Below the pieces are notes generated by a model. It ran no database searches. It was not told the origin of the DNA and worked only from the letters and a program-made list of their open reading frames with translations. The position numbers and the translations under genes were made by a program. DNA of 64,000 nt from Arcticibacter pallidicorallinus (GTDB lineage Bacteria; Bacteroidota; Bacteroidia; Sphingobacteriales; Sphingobacteriaceae), in assembly GCF_003002875.1 (NCBI RefSeq), contig NZ_PVTH01000005.1:248001-312000 (forward strand), in the 5' to 3' direction. Positions within the stretch are counted from its first letter, which is position 1; each line of letters starts with the position of its first letter. Of this stretch, positions 1 through 10,829 are shown one piece after another.

Positions 1-1422
1 TTTCAAGGCTTTTTTGGCGGCGTGGTAGCCGCACATACCGTGTACGCCACCACCAGGAGGCGTCGATGAAGAGCAGATATAGATACCCCTGGCCGAGGTG
101 GTATAGGGCGATCGCCGAAGGACCGGCCGCGTAAACAGCTGCCTCACATCCTGGATACCGCCGTTAATGTCCCCGCCAATATAGTTGGGATTATAGGCTT
201 CCATTTCCGAAGCATTCATGGTGTGTTTTGCCAGGATGCGATCTTTGAAGCCTGGAGCAAAACGCTCCACCTGATTCTCGATCGCGGCAGTCATATCGAC
301 GTTGGAACCATGCGGTACGTGGCAATACGCCCAGACCGTATGCTTGCCTTCGGGTGCCCTGCTGGGGTCGAAAAGACTTTGCTGGGCCATCAGTACGAAG
401 GGTTTGTCTACAATTTTACCTTCATGGCTTCGCTTCTCTCCTGCCGCTATCTCTTCGATGGTATTGCCAAGATGAATCGTTCCGGCACGACGGCATTCCT
501 CCGCTGTGAAAGGAACCGGACCATCCAGGGCCCAGTCGATCTTAAATACGCCCATGCCATAGCGATAGCGCTCCATCTGCCATTTGTAAATGGAGGAGAA
601 TTTGTGACCGGCGATCTTCAAAAGCTGCCTGGGGGTAACATCAAAGAGAACCGTACGGGCGCTGGGGAGTTGTTCCAGCGAGCTTACCTGAAAATCGGTC
701 TGGATCTCTCCACCCAGCGAAAGGTAGTAGGAAGTCATGGCATTTGCGATGGCAACAGAACCACCCACAGGAATAGGCCACCCGCCGAGATGCCCGTTAG
801 CCATCAGAACCAGTCCGATCGCGGAAGTGCTGAGGTTTGTAAGAGGCTGGATACTGTGTGCCGCCATGCCGCCCCAAAGTCCCCGCGCCTCCTTTTGCGA
901 GAACATCTTCGCCAGGCTCCATGCAGAGGGCAGTGCCTTGATCCCAAAGCCGGCCATGGTAAAAGGCCTGGAGGGGAAATGAAGCGGACCCAGCGCGTCT
1001 TTGGCAATCAGCGGCCAGGCTTCGCAGACCGAGTTCATCAATCGGGTATAGGCCGGTCCGTCTTTTCCCAGGGTAGCGGCGGTCTTTTCAATAGACGTGT
1101 GAAGCGCTGCCGCGTGTCCCTCATCAAAGGGATGAGCCGCCGCCACTTCGGGAGTAACGAAGCTAAGCCCGTGATCAGCCAGCGGGATCGACCTGAAGAA
1201 GGGAGAACGGGCAGCCATCGGATGAACGGCAGAGCAGATATCGTGTAAGAATCCGGGTAAGGTGAGTTCAGCGGAGCGCATCCCTCCTCCTATCTCTGAT
1301 TTCCCTTCAATTAAAAGGACAGATAAGCCCGATTGCCTGAGTGTAATCGCTGCTGCCAGGCCATTGGGACCGGCGCCTACCACTACTGCATCATAATCCC
1401 GGCTACTCGCTTTTTCTGTCAT
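1..1422 (-). CDS. FAD-dependent oxidoreductase (phytoene-desaturase-like), C-terminus cut by window edge
   Basis: Read directly from the minus strand: 474 codons without a stop, beginning at the ATG at 1420-1422 and still open at base 1. Residues 11-42 form a classic FAD-binding Rossmann entry (VVVGAGPNGLAAA at about 13-25, then an acidic residue after a second strand and IGGGM). Near the edge is the C-terminal family signature PGGGVHGMCGYHAA. Family members (NAD(P)/FAD-dependent oxidoreductases of the CrtI/phytoene desaturase type) are usually about 480-530 residues, so only a short tail is missing. It is the last visible gene of the susC-led operon, 52 bases after the DoxX-like gene, so it may act on the same substrate or with the DoxX proteins in a membrane redox step (inference). 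The substrate cannot be read from the sequence. Confidence 0.85.
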   Translation of the reverse strand, partial: MTEKASSRDYDAVVVGAGPNGLAAAITLRQSGLSVLLIEGKSEIGGGMRSAELTLPGFLHDICSAVHPMAARSPFFRSIPLADHGLSFVTPEVAAAHPFDEGHAAALHTSIEKTAATLGKDGPAYTRLMNSVCEAWPLIAKDALGPLHFPSRPFTMAGFGIKALPSAWSLAKMFSQKEARGLWGGMAAHSIQPLTNLSTSAIGLVLMANGHLGGWPIPVGGSVAIANAMTSYYLSLGGEIQTDFQVSSLEQLPSARTVLFDVTPRQLLKIAGHKFSSIYKWQMERYRYGMGVFKIDWALDGPVPFTAEECRRAGTIHLGNTIEEIAAGEKRSHEGKIVDKPFVLMAQQSLFDPSRAPEGKHTVWAYCHVPHGSNVDMTAAIENQVERFAPGFKDRILAKHTMNASEMEAYNPNYIGGDINGGIQDVRQLFTRPVLRRSPYTTSARGIYICSSSTPPGGGVHGMCGYHAAKKALK

Positions 1423-1474
1423 ACTTTTGAATAAATTCGAGCTTCATCTCGTTTGCTAAATTATTGATTTTGTG

Positions 1475-3028
1475 CTAATATTTACCTGCTTCGAGTTTGC
1501 CTTCCGATAAGGCGTATTTGCGGTCGATCCGGTTCAGAACCATGTGGATTTTATTTTTGTTCTCATCAGCTCCTTCGAGGATAACCTTAGCGCCGTCGGT
1601 AGTAGAATAGCGTAGGATCATCCGGTTTCTTTTGGGATCCTTAGCTTTTTCGGCTGGAATTCCGCGGGTTCGTCTGCTTGTCAACGCCAGTGGCTCAATC
1701 TTCAGGTTTTCGTCGCCTATATTAGCGAGTGCCTCCTTCGGGATCCAGTTATCCACTTGTTTCGGCTTCTTAGCTTCGGAAGCAGCGGCAGGTTCCTGCC
1801 GCACCCTGGGAACATTCTTATCCTGCAGATAAAGTACCTTGTTTTCTGTGTCGGCTTCGTAATAGAAGACCCGCCTGCCCCCTGCTACACCGGTCAGTTC
1901 GAAAGTCCGGTTGATATCCCGCATCGGGGAACCGCCGCCATTGGAAAGGTCCAGCTTCACGGGTTTGTTAACGTTGTAGGTTAAGGTCGACCACTTTTCA
2001 AAAGTCACCTGCTGCCATCTTAAAGAATCATTCGGCGACTCTGGAATAAGCCTGTCATTGATCCTGAACTCTGCCACATGGTAAAGACCACGAAGCTCCT
2101 TCAGCCCGCTCATGGCCGGTTGCTTGTAGGGATCGTAGAGGAAGTTGAGCGTTTGCACATAGAACAGCAAGCCCAGGAAGACAGCAATAACCAGCGTCTT
2201 CAGTCCGATGCGCAGATACTTCTGCCAGGGCTGTGCGAAATAAGGATAGTAGTTTCGCGGAATAGTAAGGCGCTCGAGGATCAGCAGATTGTAAAGCTTC
2301 GGTATATCGTGGATGATCAGGAAGGCGCCGTAAAGCGCAAAGTACGAACTGTAGACATGCACGCCGCCATCATAGGCGAAGTTCACGTAGACGATATCGC
2401 CCAGGGCGCCGAAAAGCAGAATAGCACCCAGCAGGGTGGTCTTCCGAAAGAACAGCATCATTCCGGCGGCGACTTCAACGACGCCGGCGAACACTTGATA
2501 CCAGGGAACAATACCGATGGAAAGCCAATAGATTTTTTGCAGGGTCAGGTCGCTGAAATCGGTATTGAGCAATCCGACCGAAGGGTAAGGCATCTGCACA
2601 GGAAGCAGCTTGGTAAAACCAAAGCCGATGATCCCGATGCCTGCCCGATACCTCACGATCACTCTTAACCAGTAATTTAACTTGGTGTATTCTTTACGTT
2701 GTTTATCAAACAGATACCAAATAACGGAACCGATAATAGAAACACCCAGGATAACCAACCATTCCCCATATCCATAGAGGATTCTTCCCGCTCCACGCAG
2801 AAAAGCAGGCTGAAAGCGGGCGATATCGTAGAGGTCGCGGTAATGCACACTCGTCCAGTCGATGCCGAAAAAGCCTTTGTACCAGCTGGCTGATCCGGGG
2901 ATGGACATGATGATAAAAAAGATAAAGGCTACCCGGAAGAGAAAGATCTGATACGGCTTCCAGGCCTTCTCAGTTGCAAGAACCGGCTTTCGCTGTTCCG
3001 GTGTGCTGATGTCTGTGTTTGTTTGCAT
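1475..3028 (-). CDS. DoxX-like membrane protein with C-terminal beta-rich domain (paralogue 2)
   Basis: 517 residues. The N-terminal 300 residues carry about six hydrophobic segments (about 27-45, 90-107, 130-146, 190-215, 225-245, 280-297) with a DoxX-type layout, including a VVEVAAGMMLFF segment typical of DoxX/SURF4-like proteins. Residues about 315-517 are soluble and predicted beta-rich (GLYHVAEFRINDRLIP, then a late HMVLNRIDRKY). The same domain ends the adjacent 448-residue paralogue. Relative to that copy it has an extra lysine- and alanine-rich insertion at about 405-462. It lies 18 bases downstream of the paralogue in the susC operon. DoxX proteins are linked to membrane redox complexes in some organisms; here the role is unknown. 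Confidence 0.75.
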   Translation of the reverse strand: MQTNTDISTPEQRKPVLATEKAWKPYQIFLFRVAFIFFIIMSIPGSASWYKGFFGIDWTSVHYRDLYDIARFQPAFLRGAGRILYGYGEWLVILGVSIIGSVIWYLFDKQRKEYTKLNYWLRVIVRYRAGIGIIGFGFTKLLPVQMPYPSVGLLNTDFSDLTLQKIYWLSIGIVPWYQVFAGVVEVAAGMMLFFRKTTLLGAILLFGALGDIVYVNFAYDGGVHVYSSYFALYGAFLIIHDIPKLYNLLILERLTIPRNYYPYFAQPWQKYLRIGLKTLVIAVFLGLLFYVQTLNFLYDPYKQPAMSGLKELRGLYHVAEFRINDRLIPESPNDSLRWQQVTFEKWSTLTYNVNKPVKLDLSNGGGSPMRDINRTFELTGVAGGRRVFYYEADTENKVLYLQDKNVPRVRQEPAAASEAKKPKQVDNWIPKEALANIGDENLKIEPLALTSRRTRGIPAEKAKDPKRNRMILRYSTTDGAKVILEGADENKNKIHMVLNRIDRKYALSEGKLEAGKY

Positions 3029-3046
3029 CTTCTTGTTGATTTGGAC

Positions 3047-4393
3047 CTATAATTCGAGTGCTTTACCTCTACCCTGCTTGGCAGCCTCTTCAAAGAGGTA
3101 CTTCTTGTCTTTCTTATTCAGGACTACATAAATCGCTTCCGTCCGGCTGTTGCGACCAGAAAGAATAATCTGGCGATCATTGGGGCGGGTAAAATTCATC
3201 TCGATTTTGTCGTCGGGGTAATTTTTATTTTTGTTTTGCAGGCGAAGGACGTTGCGGACAGCGTCAATCTCGTACGAATAGTAATGCCTTCCTGCGGCTC
3301 CGGAAATCTCATAAAGCCGTTCGTTGTCGGCTACACGGATCGTCTCTATGTTTGTCGAGTCGAGGATTACGGGACGGTTGGAACGAATGCTGAGGGTAGC
3401 CCATTTTTCAAAGACCACGTCTTTCCATCGGAGGCTATCGACAGCCGAATAAGGAATCACGCTGTCATTGAGCCGAAACTCCGCAACTTCATAGATCCCA
3501 CTTGCATCAGGCAACCCAGCCGTCTTGGGGTATTGATAGGGATCTGTCCGGAATCCCCTTTGAGTAGCGAAACCATAAATCAACAGAAAAATCAACACGA
3601 ACGCAGATTTCAATGCCAGGCGGATGCTCTTCTGATTTCCTTGAAAACGAGGCTTGAATACATTTGGAGCAGTTGGTCTTTCGAGCCCAAACAAGGTGTA
3701 AAGTCTGAGCGCATCATAAGCAAGGATAAAAAGCGCGATAGCAATCAGGTAAAACGCGTACACGTACTCGCCCCCTTCGTACGCCAGGTTTGCCAGGAAT
3801 ACATTCCCGGTATAAACAATCACCAGGAATGCACCGATGGTGGCCGTCTGCCTGTATAACAGCAGCAGTCCCGCGAGGATTTCCACCCAGCCCAGGAAGG
3901 ATTCGTAGCCCGGTACGATCCCCAGGGTCATGGAGAAGATTTTCCAGGCACTCAGGTCGCCGTAGTTGGTATTGAGATTGCTGAGCGATGGGAAAGGTGA
4001 CTGCATCGGGTAGACCTTGATAAAGCCGTAACCGATTACCGCAAGAGCAAGCCGGTAGCGCAGGATCACCCGCAGCCAGTAATACAGGGCGTGGTATTCC
4101 TTGCGGCTCTTGTCCAGCGCGCTCCATATTGCCGTCCCCGACAGCGCTATCACCGCAATAACTGCCCAGTTCAAAAACGATTCTTGCCCGGTGTAAAAGT
4201 GCGGTGCGTAGCGTGAGATGTTGAAGATATATCCATAGAGCGGATAATCGTCTTCAGCGTTTAACAGCTCAGCATAGAACCCCGGATCGAGAGGCAGGAC
4301 CTGTAGGAGGAAGTAAATGAAAAAGAAACGAAAGAGTACTTTTTCGTAAGACTTCCAGGGCGATAGCGCTTCGGCGGATTTTAGAGTCGTCAT
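3047..4393 (-). CDS. DoxX-like membrane protein with C-terminal beta-rich domain (paralogue 1)
   Basis: 448 residues with the same architecture as the next gene: about six transmembrane helices in the first 265 residues (including GWVEILAGLLLLY) followed by a soluble domain that starts GIYEVAEFRLNDSVIP and ends YVVLNKKDKKY. Both paralogues share the FEKW and DSLRW positions, so the C-terminal domain is a conserved unit and not a random tail. It starts 11 bases after the cyanophycinase stop codon, which implies one transcript. No catalytic motif is recognised in the C-terminal domain. Two tandem copies suggest a heterodimer or divergence to two partners (inference). Confidence 0.75.
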   Translation of the reverse strand: MTTLKSAEALSPWKSYEKVLFRFFFIYFLLQVLPLDPGFYAELLNAEDDYPLYGYIFNISRYAPHFYTGQESFLNWAVIAVIALSGTAIWSALDKSRKEYHALYYWLRVILRYRLALAVIGYGFIKVYPMQSPFPSLSNLNTNYGDLSAWKIFSMTLGIVPGYESFLGWVEILAGLLLLYRQTATIGAFLVIVYTGNVFLANLAYEGGEYVYAFYLIAIALFILAYDALRLYTLFGLERPTAPNVFKPRFQGNQKSIRLALKSAFVLIFLLIYGFATQRGFRTDPYQYPKTAGLPDASGIYEVAEFRLNDSVIPYSAVDSLRWKDVVFEKWATLSIRSNRPVILDSTNIETIRVADNERLYEISGAAGRHYYSYEIDAVRNVLRLQNKNKNYPDDKIEMNFTRPNDRQIILSGRNSRTEAIYVVLNKKDKKYLFEEAAKQGRGKALEL

Positions 4394-4404
4394 CTCTTTA
4401 AGAT

Positions 4405-5271
4405 TTATTTGCTTACCAGGGTGTTTGTTTTTGTCTCGGTGGCGATTACCTTGCGGTTTTTCAGGTCGTACTTTTGTCCCCGGCCCAGAAAAATGAAGGG
4501 TGCGGGACTATCCAGTTTACTGCGTTCATAAACAGCGGCGTAAGACGTTCCGAGCACTTCGAAGCTATCTTTCTGCACCATAATTGCGGTGCTTTCGTCT
4601 ATACCGATCCCCAAAAGTTCAGGTTTGCTGCGGATGACTTCAATCAGGTCAAACTGGCGGTTCCTTTTAAGGATATGCTGGTCGATGGCCACATTATGAA
4701 TGAAATCCAGGCCTTGCAGATGATCACCTACCAGGATGGAGTTCCCCTTCGTGTCGCCACGCAACAGGAAGGAACCCTGAATGGTGGCCCCGGCAGAAGT
4801 TCCGGCGATAACGCCACCGCGGTTCAATAAGTTCTTCAGCTCGCGGTGTGTACGGGTGTTGAGTATCGCGTCTGCGATCTTCCACTGACGGCCGCCGACA
4901 AACCAGATGCCGGTTGCCTTTTTGATCGGCGCGGCGAATTGCTCCGTTTCAGCCACTTTTGGATCCCGGGTATGAAGGATGGATACGGTCTGGACGCCCA
5001 GCGACTCCAGCAGTTCCTTCTCTTTGAAGATGCCCCGGTTGATGGTGGAATCGTCGCCCGCCGTGGGGATAATAATGATATTGGCAGACTCGCCCCCGGC
5101 CAGCTCAATGAACCTGGACCAGATCTCCGGTCCGACTTTTCCACCACCGACGATCAGGAGAGCGCCCTTTTCCGGGCCGACTGTCTGTACAGCCGGGGTC
5201 TTCTGACTAAAGCCCGTTTGGGCAGCAAGCAACAGGAGCGTTGCGAGCAATAATCTTTTCGTAGTCTTCAT
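4405..5271 (-). CDS. secreted cyanophycinase-like serine peptidase (family S51)
   Basis: 288 residues with a signal peptide (about 1-22, ending GFSQ). The S51 fold is visible: GALLIVGGG at 36-44, IIIIPTAG at 65-72, WFVGGRQ at 123-129 with the glutamine conserved in cyanophycinases, the nucleophile elbow GTSAGA with Ser159, the DQH/RNR segment at 197-205 with His199, and GIGIDESTAI with Glu226. The Ser-His-Glu set and the arginines match true cyanophycinases better than peptidase E, so cleavage of cyanophycin to beta-aspartyl-arginine dipeptides is plausible (family knowledge; specificity not proven). It follows susD by 15 bases and precedes the DoxX pair by 11, a secreted enzyme beside an outer-membrane importer. 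Confidence 0.85.
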   Translation of the reverse strand: MKTTKRLLLATLLLLAAQTGFSQKTPAVQTVGPEKGALLIVGGGKVGPEIWSRFIELAGGESANIIIIPTAGDDSTINRGIFKEKELLESLGVQTVSILHTRDPKVAETEQFAAPIKKATGIWFVGGRQWKIADAILNTRTHRELKNLLNRGGVIAGTSAGATIQGSFLLRGDTKGNSILVGDHLQGLDFIHNVAIDQHILKRNRQFDLIEVIRSKPELLGIGIDESTAIMVQKDSFEVLGTSYAAVYERSKLDSPAPFIFLGRGQKYDLKNRKVIATETKTNTLVSK

Positions 5272-5286
5272 TGTCGTTATTTCTTA

Positions 5287-6630
5287 TTAGTAGTCGTTGT
5301 TTTGAATAATGGCGTTGTTTGCTACAATCTCCGCGGTAGGAATTGGAAAGAGATACTTGTTCGGATTGGTAATTCCGAGAACCTCGCCAGCCTTGCCGGT
5401 CCGCACCAGGTCAAACCAGCGGTCCGCCTCAAATGCGAACTCCAGCCGCCTTTCCTGTGCCAGAGCATTCAGAATCGCCGTTTTATCTGTTGTGATGAGA
5501 GCAGCCAGACCAGCGCGGTCGCGCACCGCATTGAGGTCGCTCAGCGCAGCACCGAGGTTATTCTGCTGCGCCCGTGCTTCCGCACGGATCAGGTAGAGCT
5601 CCGCAGTACGGATAAGGTATGCAGGATCGGTGCCCGTTGGAGAACGGTAGTAGAGCTTGCCGTACCAGAGGTTGCCGGGGGCAGCAGTTTGTCCGAGGAG
5701 TTCCTTACGTCCACCACCCGTTTCCGCACTCGTTAAGAGCGTTACCAGCTGAGGAGTAGGCGACCATTCCCTCCGGCCACCAAGAGCAGGAGGCAGCCAC
5801 CAGTTACTGTGGTTATTCGTAGCAGAAATTGTATAAGAAAGCTCAAAAACAGATTCCGAAGTACCAACCGCATTGCTGGCAAAGAAGGCAGCATAGGGTT
5901 TCAAAAGCGAATAGTTAGCCTTATCATTGATCACTTTGGTGGCATACGATTCCGCCTGCTCCCACTCCGAGCGGTACAGGTGATAGCGCGAGCGCAGCGC
6001 CCAAACGGTTTTGCGGGTGGCCCTCTGGCGATTGGTCGTCTCCGGCAGCAGGCTTTCCGCCAGCTCCAGGTCTTTTAGTACCTGAGCATAAGTCTCCGCC
6101 AGGGTACTCTTTTCGACGTTCGCGTTCTCGCTCGACTCACGAGTAGGCGTCAGGATGATGGGCACTCCGCCCCAGCCGCGCGCCAGATCGAAATACGCCA
6201 AAGAACGAATAAAGTAGGCCTGCCCCAGGACCTCATTCCTCTGCGTCTCGGTAAACAGAGGGTCCACAACCTGGGGCACTGCCTGGATGATGTAATTTGC
6301 AGAGAGGATCGTCTGATAGATGGCCGTCCAGGCTGAACCTACATAGCCGTTATCCGCAGTAAGGCGATGAAGGACGACCTCCTGAGGAGCCGACTGGGAG
6401 CCCGACCACTGAACATCTCCGCCGGAAAGGTAAGAGAGCGCAGGAAAGTTAGAACCATAATAGCTGTTCGCACTCAGGCGGTTATAAAGACCGTTAAGCG
6501 CCGTAGTAGCAGAGGAGGCGTTGGTGATCGCCTTGGACTCATCGACCTGCAGTTGCGGGTCGACTTCCAGAAAATTCTCGCAGGACGTAAACAGAAGCAA
6601 GAAAGGAAATATATAGGCTAAGCGTTTCAT
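5287..6630 (-). CDS. SusD/RagB-family outer-membrane lipoprotein
   Basis: 447 residues from the ATG at 6628-6630. The longer open frame to 6705 would add 25 residues that overlap susC, whereas the chosen start gives a clean lipoprotein signal: MKRLAYIFPFLLLFTSC with the lipidated Cys17. Typical SusD features follow: YFIRSLAYFDLARGWGGVPII in the helical TPR-like core, RSRYHLYRSEWEQA, and the C-terminal SusD motif AQERRLEFAFEADRWFDLVR with a terminal IPTAEI block. It forms the substrate-capturing lid on the SusC transporter. It lies 13 bases after susC and 15 before the cyanophycinase gene, so the pair is part of that operon. Confidence 0.93.
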   Translation of the reverse strand: MKRLAYIFPFLLLFTSCENFLEVDPQLQVDESKAITNASSATTALNGLYNRLSANSYYGSNFPALSYLSGGDVQWSGSQSAPQEVVLHRLTADNGYVGSAWTAIYQTILSANYIIQAVPQVVDPLFTETQRNEVLGQAYFIRSLAYFDLARGWGGVPIILTPTRESSENANVEKSTLAETYAQVLKDLELAESLLPETTNRQRATRKTVWALRSRYHLYRSEWEQAESYATKVINDKANYSLLKPYAAFFASNAVGTSESVFELSYTISATNNHSNWWLPPALGGRREWSPTPQLVTLLTSAETGGGRKELLGQTAAPGNLWYGKLYYRSPTGTDPAYLIRTAELYLIRAEARAQQNNLGAALSDLNAVRDRAGLAALITTDKTAILNALAQERRLEFAFEADRWFDLVRTGKAGEVLGITNPNKYLFPIPTAEIVANNAIIQNNDY

Positions 6631-6643
6631 TGTAGCTATTAAT

Positions 6644-9600
6644 TTAAAGTGTGACATTAAGACCCAGTTGAACAGTACGCGGAACAGGCGGGGTACCGAG
6701 ATCATAACCCTGAACCAGCGGGTTGGAAGTCACATTGATCTCCGGATCCGGACCGCTATACTTCGTCCACAGTGCCAGATTCGTTCCCGTTACATAGACA
6801 CGGATGGTGGATGCCTTAACCTTGCGGCTTAAATCCTTTGGCAAGGTATAACCCAGATTGACAATACTCAGGCGCAGGAAAGATCCATCCTCTACAAAGC
6901 GGCTGCTCGGACTTAGCGTGTAGTTTGTTCCCTGGGTTGTTAGGCGGGGCACGTCTGTAATATCGCCCGGCTTCTGCCAGCGGTTGAGCTGGTTCTTATT
7001 AATGGCGCGGCGGTCGTCGCGGGTACCACCCGATTCCAGGAAGAAGCGGTTGTTGTTATAGATCTTATTTCCGTAGGAGAAGTTGAAAAAGACAGACAAA
7101 TCAATGCCCTTAAAGGAGAAAGCGTTATTCAACCCTCCAAACAATTTAGGAGAGGCATTACCAATCACCTGCTTATCCGCAACGGTAAGCTGACCATCCT
7201 GGTTCAGGTCTTCATATACCGCATCACCCGTCTGAGGATCGACATACAGTTGCTTGTAGACAAAGAACGAATACAGGGGATAGCCTTCGATCATGCGGAT
7301 GGTGTTGTACGATGCATCGATAGGGGTTGGCAGCTTTTCAATCTTATTGACATTTCGGCCCAGATTCAGGTTGGTTTGCCATTTGAAATGCTCAGCAGCG
7401 ATGTTGGTGCTGTTGATGCTCAACTCAATTCCCTTGTTGCTGATCTCACCGGTATTTTTAGTGATGGAAGAAAATCCGGTACTCGGTGCCAGGGGATCGT
7501 TCAGGAGAAGGTCTTCCGTGTACTTGTGGTAAACGTTGAATTCGATACCCAGTCGGTCTTTAAAGAGACCCAGGTCGATACCCAGGTTCGTCTGACGGGT
7601 AGACTCCCAACCCAGGTTGGCATTAGCCAGCTGAACCGGGATAGATCCCGGATTGTCGAGGTAGTTATACCCACCCTGCCAAAGACCAAGGGCAGCATAA
7701 TTATCGATACCGTTCTGGTTACCGGTCAAGCCTATACTGGCGCGGATCTTCAGATCGCTGATGGTCTGAGAGTTGAGCAGGAAAGACTCCTCCTTTACAC
7801 GCCAGGACAGACCTGCGGAAGGGAAATATCCCCATTTCTTATCCGCACCGAAGCGGGATGAGCCGTCGGCACGAAGGCTCGCCTCCAGGAAGTATTTCCC
7901 TGCATAGTTGTAGTCTATTCTAGAAAAAAATGAGGAAAGCTTGTTTTCCGCCAGGTTAGAGGAAGAGGTGGTAGTCGCAGCTGAGGCAATCTGCTTCAGA
8001 TCGTCAGACGGGAAGTTGGTACCCTGCGCAAAAGTCTGCCTGGCCGTATTTCCCTGAATAGAATTTCCGAGTAGTACACCAATGGTATGATTCTCGTTGA
8101 AGGTATTGCGATAGGTCAAAGTCTGCTCACTGCTCCAGATCAGGTTCTGGCTAATGCTGGAGGCAGCCAGACCCTTGTTGGCGCTACCTCGGTTGGTGAG
8201 GGAATTCCAGTATTCAAACTCATCGTAGTTATTGTAATCGAGACTCCAGCTGCTGCGTAATTTCAGGCCTTTTGCAATCTCTGCCTCTCCGTATATATTA
8301 CCCATATAACGGCTGCTGACCGACTGCATATCCGTGTTATCAATCAGGACATCGAGGTTATCAAAACCAGCCCATTTCGCATACGTGCCATCGGCATTAA
8401 ACTTAGGGAGGTAAGTGGGCGTATGAAGACCCGCCTGAAGGATTCCCCCCTGAGGGCCATCCCCTACACGGGCATTTGCGCGTTGAGATCTGGCCAGGGT
8501 ATTGCTGGTTCCGACCTTCAGAAAAGAATTGATGGTCTGGTCCAGGTTGATCTTAAAACTGGCACGACTGTAGTCGTTGGTCTTGAGCGTCGCGTCCTGG
8601 GAGGCATATCCCCCACCGATATAATAGCGGGTTTTATCATTACCACCCGATACGGAAAGATCATAGTTCTGCAGGCGACCTGTGCGGAAGACATCATTCA
8701 GGCGATCGTAGGTCTGCTGCTCCTCCGGAAGACCGCGTCCCCCTTCAGAAACCGGACGAAAGGGACGGGTAGCGAAAGGCTTTCCGTCATTTGTCCAGGT
8801 TTCGTTGATAATGGTCGCATGTTCCGGACCAGTCAGCAGATCCCAAAGTTCAGGCGCCCATGAGGCACCCTGGTATGTGTTCAGGGAGATCTTCGGCCTT
8901 GAATTATAAGTACCCCTCTTTGTTGTGATGAGTACCACACCATTCGCTGCCCTGGCTCCGTAGATCGCAGTCGCTTCTGCATCCTTCAGGATCGAAATCG
9001 ATTCGATATCAGCAGGATTGATATCCGCGAGAGGATTGTTAGCCTGTCCCTGGGTCGTGATCTTTTGAAGCGACTGGTTATTGATAAACACCCCGTCTAT
9101 GATATAGAGCGGGTCGCTGCTCGCGTTGATAGACGTCGTTCCGCGGATTCGGAAGAACAGTCCGTCGCCCGGAACACCGGTATTAGAGCCGACCTGCACA
9201 CCCGCCGCCCTGCCCTGGATCTGCTGATCAAAGCTCGCAGAAGGCTGGTTAGCGATTTCAGAAGTCTTGATAGTAGATACAGCACCGATAACAGAACGCT
9301 TGCTCTGCGTGCCGTAGCCGACTACGACCACTTCGTTGAGGGTTTTGATATCCTCCTTCAGGAGCACTTCGATGGGGCTGCCGTTAGCGGTGATCTCCCT
9401 CTTCTCGTATCCGATATAGCTGACGATGATATTATAGGGAAATTTCTGTCCCGTTATAAACTGAAAGCGCCCTTTTGAATCAGTGTACGACGAGTGGGTC
9501 GTACCTTTTAACTGAATGGACACCCCGATAAGCGGTTCCCTGGTCTTCGCGTCCAGTATGGTACCTTCCAGGGTCGAGTTGATGAGGGGTTTTGGGTTAT

Positions 9601-9691
9601 CCTGAGATTTTAGCAGTACGGGTGTGGACAGGGCGAGTAACAATGCGCATAGAAACCTGACCGAATAGGGACTTCGGGTATTAAATTTCAT
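6644..9691 (-). CDS. SusC/RagA-family TonB-dependent outer-membrane transporter
   Basis: 1015 residues. A signal peptide (about 1-29) is followed by a carboxypeptidase-regulatory-like domain (about 40-115, LEGTILDAKTREPLIGVSI), a TonB-box-like segment EVVVVGYGTQ (about 120-129), the plug domain (about 130-235, with LYIIDGVFI and SISILKDAEATAIYGARAANGV) and a beta-barrel to the C-terminus (ending VPRTVQLGLNVTL). There is no STN domain, so no direct sigma/anti-sigma signalling is expected. It is the first gene of the operon and imports the ligand bound by the adjacent SusD. Because the third gene is a peptidase and not a glycosidase, a peptide-like cargo is likelier than a glycan (inference). 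Confidence 0.95.
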   Translation of the reverse strand: MKFNTRSPYSVRFLCALLLALSTPVLLKSQDNPKPLINSTLEGTILDAKTREPLIGVSIQLKGTTHSSYTDSKGRFQFITGQKFPYNIIVSYIGYEKREITANGSPIEVLLKEDIKTLNEVVVVGYGTQSKRSVIGAVSTIKTSEIANQPSASFDQQIQGRAAGVQVGSNTGVPGDGLFFRIRGTTSINASSDPLYIIDGVFINNQSLQKITTQGQANNPLADINPADIESISILKDAEATAIYGARAANGVVLITTKRGTYNSRPKISLNTYQGASWAPELWDLLTGPEHATIINETWTNDGKPFATRPFRPVSEGGRGLPEEQQTYDRLNDVFRTGRLQNYDLSVSGGNDKTRYYIGGGYASQDATLKTNDYSRASFKINLDQTINSFLKVGTSNTLARSQRANARVGDGPQGGILQAGLHTPTYLPKFNADGTYAKWAGFDNLDVLIDNTDMQSVSSRYMGNIYGEAEIAKGLKLRSSWSLDYNNYDEFEYWNSLTNRGSANKGLAASSISQNLIWSSEQTLTYRNTFNENHTIGVLLGNSIQGNTARQTFAQGTNFPSDDLKQIASAATTTSSSNLAENKLSSFFSRIDYNYAGKYFLEASLRADGSSRFGADKKWGYFPSAGLSWRVKEESFLLNSQTISDLKIRASIGLTGNQNGIDNYAALGLWQGGYNYLDNPGSIPVQLANANLGWESTRQTNLGIDLGLFKDRLGIEFNVYHKYTEDLLLNDPLAPSTGFSSITKNTGEISNKGIELSINSTNIAAEHFKWQTNLNLGRNVNKIEKLPTPIDASYNTIRMIEGYPLYSFFVYKQLYVDPQTGDAVYEDLNQDGQLTVADKQVIGNASPKLFGGLNNAFSFKGIDLSVFFNFSYGNKIYNNNRFFLESGGTRDDRRAINKNQLNRWQKPGDITDVPRLTTQGTNYTLSPSSRFVEDGSFLRLSIVNLGYTLPKDLSRKVKASTIRVYVTGTNLALWTKYSGPDPEINVTSNPLVQGYDLGTPPVPRTVQLGLNVTL

Positions 9692-9783
9692 ACCTTTGAA
9701 TGTTTTTATTAATGAGAAATCGATTGATAAGAACAGGATAAAATCAGTGGCAATTGGCGTTACTTTCTGGTTTTATCTGCATG

Positions 9784-9810
9784 AAGCCGGGAGATCTACT
9801 CTCCTGGCTT
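9784..9810 (-). other. hairpin in the susC 5' leader
   Basis: Arms 9784-9794 and 9800-9810 pair over 11 positions with one G-T wobble around a 5-base loop. If the susC transcript starts near 9950, this hairpin lies in the 5' leader about 95 bases ahead of the start codon. It could be an mRNA-stabilising or regulatory structure. A terminator is less likely for the minus-strand transcript, because the T-rich stretch lies on the wrong side of the hairpin. Confidence 0.45.
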
Positions 9811-9957
9811 TATTTATTTCCTACCCTCAACAACACATTCGCGCATTCCCTGCATGGCGTACATTTTGATTTTTCGTGGTCTGATGAGACTGAGAATTCT
9901 GCGTCTTCATTTTCTTTTCAGTAGTTTGAGTTGAGAAGTGTTTGATTTTTGTTACGA

Positions 9958-9965
9958 CAAATATA
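9958..9965 (-). promoter_or_regulatory. candidate susC promoter (-7 element TATATTTG)
   Basis: The minus-strand octamer TATATTTG is a perfect match to the Bacteroidota -7 consensus TAnnTTTG. No convincing TTG lies 19-21 bases upstream, so the -33 box is weak, which would fit an activated or growth-controlled promoter. Predicted initiation near 9950 gives a leader of roughly 260 bases. Confidence 0.45.
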
Positions 9966-10026
9966 GGGGAAAATATATAAGTACATAATTAATCTATAGA
10001 TTTAGTAGACTTATTTTTTAACGGGA

Positions 10027-10046
10027 AATGTTAATTTGACATTAAT
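10027..10046. promoter_or_regulatory. candidate AraR operator upstream of araR
   Basis: The core TGTTAATTTGACA is an imperfect palindrome of form TGTnAAnTTnACA. The same motif recurs in front of araB at 10874-10893, with 16 of 20 aligned bases identical. Shared presence in the two promoters expected for an autoregulated arabinose repressor is the argument. Binding is inferred, not shown. Confidence 0.5.
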
Positions 10047-10078
10047 TGCATCCGCAGCAGTAAAATCTCTTATCTTTC
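10046..10078 (+). promoter_or_regulatory. candidate araR promoter
   Basis: A TTG at 10046-10048 is followed after 22 bases by TATCTTTC at 10071-10078, one base off the TAnnTTTG -7 consensus. The candidate operator overlaps the -33 box, as expected for repression. Initiation near 10085 would give a leader of about 35 bases. Confidence 0.4.
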
Positions 10079-10121
10079 GCTCCTATTTAACCAATAACAG
10101 ATTTATCGAAAAAACCTATAC

Positions 10122-10829
10122 ATGAACAGGTATTCCAAGCAAGCCCGTCTCCTTATCGCTATTGACTGCATTATATTTGGATTCGACGGAGAGAATCTGA
10201 AACTGCTGCTGATCCACCGCGCCTTTGAGCCAGAGATGGGAAAATGGAGCGTAGTGGGAGGATTTCTTCAGCCGGACGAGAGTCCGGAAAACGCCGCAGC
10301 CCGCATCCTGAAGCAGCTGACCGGACTGGAAGGCGTCTACATGGAGCAGCTGGAAGCATTTGGGAACCCCTCCAGGGATCCTATCGAGCGGGTCATCAGC
10401 CTCACCTACTTCGCCCTTATTGACATCAATAAATATACCGAGCAGCTAAGCGAAGAATACCGCCCCGAGTGGTTTTTATTAAAAGAGCGGCCGGAGCTGA
10501 TCTTCGACCATAATGAAATGGTAGAAGCGGCGCTGAAGAAACTGCGTTATAAAGCCGCGCTGCATCCTGTGCTGTTTGAGTTGCTGCCGGAGAAATTCAC
10601 ATTACCGCAATTGCAGGCGCTCTACACGGCTGTTTACGATGCCCAGTTCGACAAGCGGAATTTCAGCAGGAAAGTCTTATCCGCAGAGCTTTTAGTAAAA
10701 CAGACGGAAAAAGACAAAGAAGGCTCGAAGAAGGGCGCCTTTTATTATATGCTCGATAAAACGCAGTACAAGGACAAACTGCAGACCTTTGTAAACTTTG
10801 TACCGACACCCGATAATTTTCTTTTATAA
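10122..10829 (+). CDS. araR: Nudix-fold transcriptional regulator of arabinose utilisation (AraR-type)
   Basis: 235 residues. The N-terminal 140 residues are a Nudix domain, but the Nudix box is degenerate: G47, E53 and R61 remain while the REUxEE glutamates are replaced (R61-I-L-K-Q-L66), so hydrolase activity is not expected. The C-terminal part (about 150-235, with KRNFSRKVL and KKGAFYYMLD) is the winged-helix DNA-binding domain of the NrtR/AraR class. A Nudix-derived AraR controlling arabinose genes is known from Bacteroides thetaiotaomicron. Its position 71 bases upstream of araB and the shared palindromes in both promoters support the same role here, with L-arabinose as probable effector. 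Confidence 0.85.
   Translation: MNRYSKQARLLIAIDCIIFGFDGENLKLLLIHRAFEPEMGKWSVVGGFLQPDESPENAAARILKQLTGLEGVYMEQLEAFGNPSRDPIERVISLTYFALIDINKYTEQLSEEYRPEWFLLKERPELIFDHNEMVEAALKKLRYKAALHPVLFELLPEKFTLPQLQALYTAVYDAQFDKRNFSRKVLSAELLVKQTEKDKEGSKKGAFYYMLDKTQYKDKLQTFVNFVPTPDNFLL

Follow-up and report, generated by a model that had tools for sequence, protein, structure and literature searches.

A SusCD operon with an S51 peptidase in Arcticibacter pallidicorallinus and its relatives: association with sulfur genes and cysteine-codon leaders

A SusCD locus is nearly always taken for a sugar-uptake system. The window analyzed here, a stretch of 64,000 nucleotides from Arcticibacter pallidicorallinus, opens on a SusCD operon that includes a secreted S51 peptidase, two membrane proteins and a flavoprotein, and the question it raises is what such an operon captures. 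A first-pass annotation had proposed a dedicated locus for capturing and cleaving cyanophycin or another beta-linked aspartyl polymer. Because the related operons travel with sulfite-handling genes and frequently have a Cys-rich leader, they most likely import an organic sulfur compound, and we put at about two in three the probability that the window operon is a cysteine-controlled uptake-and-oxidation operon for such a compound.

The operon and its family

The six genes are co-directional on the minus strand with gaps of 11-52 bases, an arrangement that had been noted before and that the open reading frame coordinates bear out. The first encodes a SusC-type TonB-dependent transporter (6644..9691, minus strand; TIGR04056, 847 bits against a cut-off of 368) and the second a SusD-type surface lipoprotein (5287..6630, minus; PF14322 and PF07980 above cut-off), so that the earlier naming of a TonB transporter and a binding lipoprotein is firm; the SusD start at ~6630 follows from a signal-peptide reading, the long open reading frame beginning at 6705. 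There follow the S51 peptidase (4405..5271, minus), the membrane proteins DoxA (3047..4393, minus) and DoxB (1475..3028, minus), and an FAD oxidoreductase of CrtO/PYROXD2-like type (1..1422, minus), which ends 32 bases past base 1 and measures 484 aa in full. The end of the operon past base 1, which had been left to be checked, holds a seventh gene, outside the window and beginning 27 bases past the flavoprotein gene. It encodes a 420-aa YeiH-family transporter (PF03601, 175.8 bits, above the cut-off of 24.5; TIGR00698, 96.8 bits, below the cut-off of 232.6), a putative sulfite/sulfate exporter of the YeiH type. On the other side, the nearest gene to susC is divergent, of NUDIX type and 430 bases away; it stands ahead of a putative arabinose operon (both names are from reading of the sequence). 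No carbohydrate-enzyme family was matched at 1e-3 or better in Pfam or NCBIfam by the six window genes or the YeiH gene (for the flavoprotein, among the best 25 of its 58 NCBIfam matches), and glycan uptake was set aside because no glycosidase was matched within the operon. A defence system was likewise rejected, as PADLOC gave one weak match only, to the flavoprotein, among five of the seven operon proteins.

The two membrane proteins are both present as first annotated, and the extra domain said to be common to them appears as a predicted lipocalin-like barrel; the label DoxX finds weak support in the sequence. DoxB is a paralogue of DoxA (41% over DoxA residues 11-390), neither protein matches a Pfam family at 1e-3, and DoxX matches 4 of 37 homologues at E<=1 (best E 0.012). 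AlphaFold models built from 37-row alignments show a helical domain together with the barrel (residues ~294-430; best Z 8.9). For the helical domain the top Foldseek matches were to GGCX (vitamin K carboxylase; E 0.16), and a comparison with NACHO/TMEM35A gave Z 8.0 and rmsd 3.0 over 111 aligned residues; both matches are weak, and DoxA is described here as a DoxX/GGCX-like membrane domain with a lipocalin-like domain in that sense. From the families matched, DoxA and DoxB possibly have a quinone-linked redox role.

At E<=1e-20, 152 of the 301 family genomes searched have a homologue of DoxA, paralogues included; none of the five other genomes of the window's genus has one at this threshold, a point against our main reading. 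Two sets of loci were compared: 66 from the family (the window's own included), taken as 20-kb stretches around the best-scoring DoxA matches and hence not random, and the best 80 of 295 relatives from named genomes. These sets overlap in some genomes and are not summed, and some loci are cut by contig ends. Genes were counted as one run when they lay on the same strand with gaps of <=200 bases, and were labeled by BLAST to reference proteins, with representative references scanned by HMM. The 66 runs contain SusC (61), SusD (63), DoxB (63), the flavoprotein (42), YeiH (42), cytochrome c (30), SoxC (29) and S51 (19); in the 80 runs the numbers are 70, 73, 79, 47, 40, 57, 54 and 28, respectively. 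The neighborhood check thus upheld the first-pass annotation for a SusC-SusD-DoxA-DoxB core, which is conserved across the 66 and 80 loci, but not for S51, as the last of these numbers show. The SusCD operon is missing at the loci of five weaker DoxA relatives (L038-L042), which the counts exclude; this, like the choice of loci by score, speaks against our reading. Runs bearing SoxC occur in Sphingobacteriaceae, Chitinophagaceae and several Cytophagales families. One record titled Williamsia (Actinomycetota; L213) carries the Bacteroidota operon and is probably a misnamed or mixed MAG. By gene content and order, the window operon is a real, conserved member of a widespread Bacteroidota family of SusCD uptake operons; the earlier view of a conserved uptake operon with a peptidase, no matched glycosidase and redox genes that matter is sustained. 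No description of such a SusCD locus appears in the titles and abstract openings among the literature matches listed.

Sulfur genes recur in this family. The runs of 57 of 66 and 62 of 80 loci include at least one gene for SoxC, rhodanese, MBL-rhodanese, a CDO-like protein or YeiH, and this holds for runs with S51 (18/19 and 23/28) and for those without it (39/47 and 39/52). The remaining runs (9 of 66 and 18 of 80) lack every sulfur gene tested for, which counts against our reading. In L033, for example, the in-operon molybdenum enzyme that serves as the SoxC reference scores 474 against 420 with the sulfite dehydrogenase model TIGR04555 and has a cytochrome c as its partner. Among operons lacking SoxC, that of L035 encodes a four-rhodanese protein, a cysteine-dioxygenase-like protein (PF05995, 23.2 against 23) and several of thioredoxin-like type. 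Others carry a rhodanese or an MBL-rhodanese protein; the latter scores above the cut-off of no model and, by reading, may be persulfide-dioxygenase-like. A PLP enzyme of Cys/Met metabolism occurs in two runs, one of which was HMM-scanned. SoxC and cytochrome c are missing from the window's own operon, a further point against the main reading; in the same genome they stand together on another contig, C6 (SoxC, 485 bits against 420).

The S51 peptidase

The window S51 narrowly passes the cyanophycinase model TIGR02069 (132.5 against a curated cut-off of 126.6). The first-pass annotation had credited it with the full cyanophycinase residue set, and the four residues that it named, Gln129, Ser159, His199 and Glu226, are where it placed them; the last three correspond to the catalytic Ser132, His174 and Glu201 of CphB, and the equivalents of CphB Gln101, Asp172, Gln173, Arg178 and Arg180 are retained as well. 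What was overlooked is Arg183 of CphB, a substrate-pocket residue reported to be critical for cyanophycinase (PMC3235067), whose position is taken by Asp208. The window S51 belongs to a clade with the motif GGR-Q/H-W (GGRQW in the window). Among its 44 distinct members, three fused double-S51 proteins included, the Arg183 position is Asp in 40, Ala in 3 and Gly in 1, and Arg in none, as against Arg in 41 of 41 readable S51 sequences of other types examined. The sequences thus suggest that the clade has lost cyanophycinase activity. The clade has Arg where CphB has Asp100, however, so a swapped salt bridge with the Arg183 position is possible and the function could survive.

A search of the 301 family genomes gave 24 matches that share 51% identity or more with the window S51, 21 of which lie inside DoxX operons. 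The other three are L246, L247 and L248; in L246 the clade S51 stands outside the operon and adjoins a sulfite/nitrite-reductase-like gene and cysH, which are sulfate-assimilation genes. The next tier consists of the fused double-S51 proteins at 41-45% identity in three genomes, followed by matches of <=35%. These double-domain proteins (L249, L250 and L251) are 539-550 aa long, and those of L250 and L251 sit in SusCD-headed runs, the former adjoining an S9-type peptidase gene. In Pedobacter panaciterrae O48 (L163), an extra SusC-SusD-S51 set lies directly upstream of an S51-less SusC-SusD-DoxA-DoxB set.

On a tree of SusD proteins (136 that met the rule, 119 of them distinct), the presence of S51 between SusD and DoxA takes 2 changes, against a shuffled mean of 26.9, where S51 at another place in the run (four loci) is scored as absent. 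With S51 counted anywhere in the run, 6 changes are needed, against a shuffled mean of 30. The tree is a quick one with long-branch warnings, and the window SusD is among the long branches. Since S51 tracks the SusD phylogeny so closely, the peptidase and the receptor probably share a substrate. S51 is best read as a specificity enzyme co-inherited with SusD clades, an optional peptidase at the front end of the pathway.

Cysteine codons and hairpins upstream of susC

Between susC and its divergent neighbor, the minus strand presents a candidate promoter -7 box, TATATTTG (9958..9965), read from the sequence; the -7 consensus of Bacteroidota promoters is TAnnTTTG. Downstream of it lies a candidate leader peptide, MKTQNSQSHQTTKNQNVRHAGNARMCC (9827..9910, minus), whose final two codons are Cys (RMCC), followed by two hairpins. 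Hairpin 1 (9784..9810, minus; AAGCC..GGAGA with TCTCC..GGCTT) has an A-rich tract before it and is a candidate attenuator. Hairpin 2 (9737..9777, minus) has the conserved loop GTAACGCCAAT and scores only 9.3 bits with model R1, described below.

In the relatives these elements are more pronounced: the leader has up to six consecutive Cys codons, hairpins of differing sequence occupy the place of hairpin 1, and a subset has a pair of hairpins, of which the second displays a conserved GUAACGCCAAUCAC loop. The leader was assessed in the 400-base upstreams of susC, 119 of them distinct, with expectations from dinucleotide shuffles. A short ATG-started open reading frame with at least 3 Cys in its last 8 residues is present in 53 of the 119, against 0.85 expected. 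Among other SusC upstreams, 4 of 46 have at least 3 Cys, three belonging to second TonB genes and one (L145) apparently to a DoxX locus; none of 17 SusC upstreams at loci of the C9 type (see below) reaches 2 Cys. Fewer than 2 Cys are found in 45 of the 119 upstreams, which argues against our reading, and at least 2 Cys in the last 8 residues are expected in ~8% of shuffled upstreams (9.55 of 119), so that the window leader is insignificant by itself. The loop AACGCCAAT, ~70 bases before susC, occurs in 32 of the 119 upstreams, against 0.42 expected, and in 0 of the 46 other SusC upstreams; in 28 of these 32 the leader, too, is present with at least 2 Cys. Near the operons of L034, L101 and L103, a second TonB gene (L034:17328-20000, L101:3206-7144 and L103:15436-19372) also has a leader ending in CCC. 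In L101 this gene is followed by one for a TauE/SafE sulfite exporter, and a similar-sized gene follows in L103. A further TonB gene, L331:1-1461, has a Cys-ending leader and a GTAACGCCAATCAC hairpin.

The stem of hairpin 2 covaries in 17 relatives, with 90.6% of cells paired and double changes in 7 of 10 pairs; none of 500 shuffles was as high on four of five measures, and 15 of 500 were on the fifth. A fold of the whole leader from alignment A4 gave only 3 pairs because stem spacing differs between subgroups. For the same reason model R1 was built with a hand-set structure from the 17 of 30 sequences that have equal spacing, and its pair counts apply to those 17 alone. Searched with R1, the named loci (74 of 80, six short ones being left out) gave 30 matches, and 30 control loci gave none. 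The matches in L213 and L215 (minus strand, E ~0.1) look like chance, and outside Sphingobacteriaceae the only convincing match is that in L200, which weighs against the main reading. With default filters, the 66 sources gave 21 matches at E<=1, none of them to the window, and a search of the window's own genome returned nothing at E<=1. Nine of ten genomes searched have a match, the best in each at the DoxA operon, and the tenth (G074) is not DoxA-positive; in G146 a further TonB gene is preceded by a second match, and in G063 there is a weak, chance-like one (22 bits). Rfam gave no match near the gathering score in window 9500-10200 and, in six relatives, only a tRNA, the GUAACGCCAAUCAC-loop hairpin being without a match. 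Four Cys codons, sought in six genomes, proved too unspecific a pattern for defining a regulon. The window thus carries a weak, divergent copy of the leader and hairpins, which counts against our reading; we infer that this leader works and that expression responds to cysteine.

Candidate substrates and a possible pathway

A locus for cyanophycin or another beta-aspartyl polymer would account for a secreted enzyme that adjoins SusCD, passes TIGR02069 and keeps the catalytic Ser, His and Glu and most pocket equivalents. Yet it is improbable, and cyanophycin as the substrate does not survive the comparison: the Arg183 equivalent is absent throughout the clade, most operons examined are without S51, and the sulfur genes, which recur whether or not S51 is there, are left unexplained. 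Neither did any gene in the runs match the isoaspartyl peptidase reference of the IaaA type from the same genome (the unrelated IadA type fell outside this test). Moreover, the genome has a true cphA-cphB cluster on contig C3 (L135:6869-11380), with a cyanophycin synthetase (1240 bits against 850), the cyanophycinase CphB (217 against 126.6) and an isoaspartyl-peptidase-like (iaaA-like) gene. On contig C9 (L007:2012-11617), genes for a sigma factor and FecR, by reading, precede those for SusC, SusD, S51 and an isoaspartyl-peptidase-like protein, with a second S51 gene facing these four. The first of its S51 genes is present in 20 of 201 family genomes. Of these 20 loci (its own included), 15 have SusC and SusD of the same type alongside, 15 have the second S51 and 13 have the peptidase. 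This conserved C9 locus is a better candidate than the window operon for a SusCD locus for cyanophycin or isoaspartyl peptides. Less probable still is general peptide scavenging, in which S51 would be a dipeptidase of Asp-X or isoaspartyl type, with sulfur genes as functionally unrelated neighbors; the S51 family is reported to include Asp-dipeptidases (PMC9239234), but the recurrence of sulfur genes in S51-less runs and the Cys leaders speak against it.

A stronger, though still rather unlikely, contender keeps the sulfur and changes its purpose: an imported sulfur compound, reduced or organic (thiosulfate-, polysulfane- or sulfonate-like), would be oxidized to sulfate for energy or for sulfite removal, and not for cysteine supply. 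SusCD systems usually take up larger molecules, a whole branch of the family has a peptidase, and the Cys codons of the leaders suggest regulation by the availability of cysteine, all of which argue against it. In its favor, the SoxC, cytochrome c, YeiH and rhodanese genes form an oxidative set, and YeiH is reported as the most strongly thiosulfate-induced gene in Hyphomicrobium (PMC11582611), which favors our main reading too. Energy gain or detoxification explains the oxidation of sulfite to sulfate no less well than sulfur acquisition does.

If the window operon is, as we prefer, a cysteine-controlled system for the uptake and oxidation of organic sulfur, a shortage of cysteine would delay ribosomes at the leader's Cys codons, and the downstream hairpins would then permit expression of the operon. 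SusC and SusD would capture the compound and import it across the outer membrane, and in the S51 branch, the window's included, periplasmic S51 would cleave a peptide-like part of it. Oxidation of the sulfur-bearing product might fall to DoxA, DoxB and the flavoprotein; the resulting sulfite would be oxidized by a SoxC-type dehydrogenase with cytochrome c, encoded in the operon in many relatives and elsewhere in this genome; and YeiH would move sulfite or sulfate. More tentative is the fuller proposal of SusCD loci for organic sulfur under a possibly new cysteine-sensing leader (a poly-Cys peptide, a terminator-like hairpin and the GUAACGCCAAUCAC hairpin), in which the substrate of the S51 branch might be a peptide-linked thiol or sulfane-sulfur compound, e.g., of the glutathione/phytochelatin type.

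Known systems share parts of this arrangement. As in the polysaccharide utilization loci of Bacteroidota, a SusC/SusD pair heads an operon with a processing enzyme, but here with no matched glycosidase, with sulfur-oxidation genes and with many Cys-rich leaders. The sets for organosulfonate and thiosulfate oxidation (sulfite dehydrogenase, cytochrome c and a SuyZ/YeiH exporter) are reported to end likewise in the conversion of sulfite to sulfate and to share the exporter family (PMC11582611, PMC9594981), whereas the SusCD family has no recognized desulfonation enzyme and would have SusCD as its input and DoxA, DoxB and the flavoprotein in mid-path. The window S51 shares family, catalytic residues and most pocket residues with the cyanophycinases CphB/CphE (MEROPS S51), and differs from them in the replaced Arg183, the GGRQW motif and the sulfur-operon setting. 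Mycobacteria have Cys-rich uORFs that are likewise small, end in a cluster of Cys codons and stand upstream of sulfur genes, a mode of regulation termed speculative in PMC4633059; they are of another phylum, and here hairpins and a conserved loop are added, ahead of a SusCD operon.

"Cyanophycinase" labels on Bacteroidota S51 proteins can thus mislead, and if the substrate is indeed a sulfur peptide, this S51 clade would be a new class of enzymes for sulfur peptides. A SusCD family tied to sulfite oxidation and to leader Cys codons would extend the role of SusCD to sulfur nutrition in soil- and plant-associated Bacteroidota.
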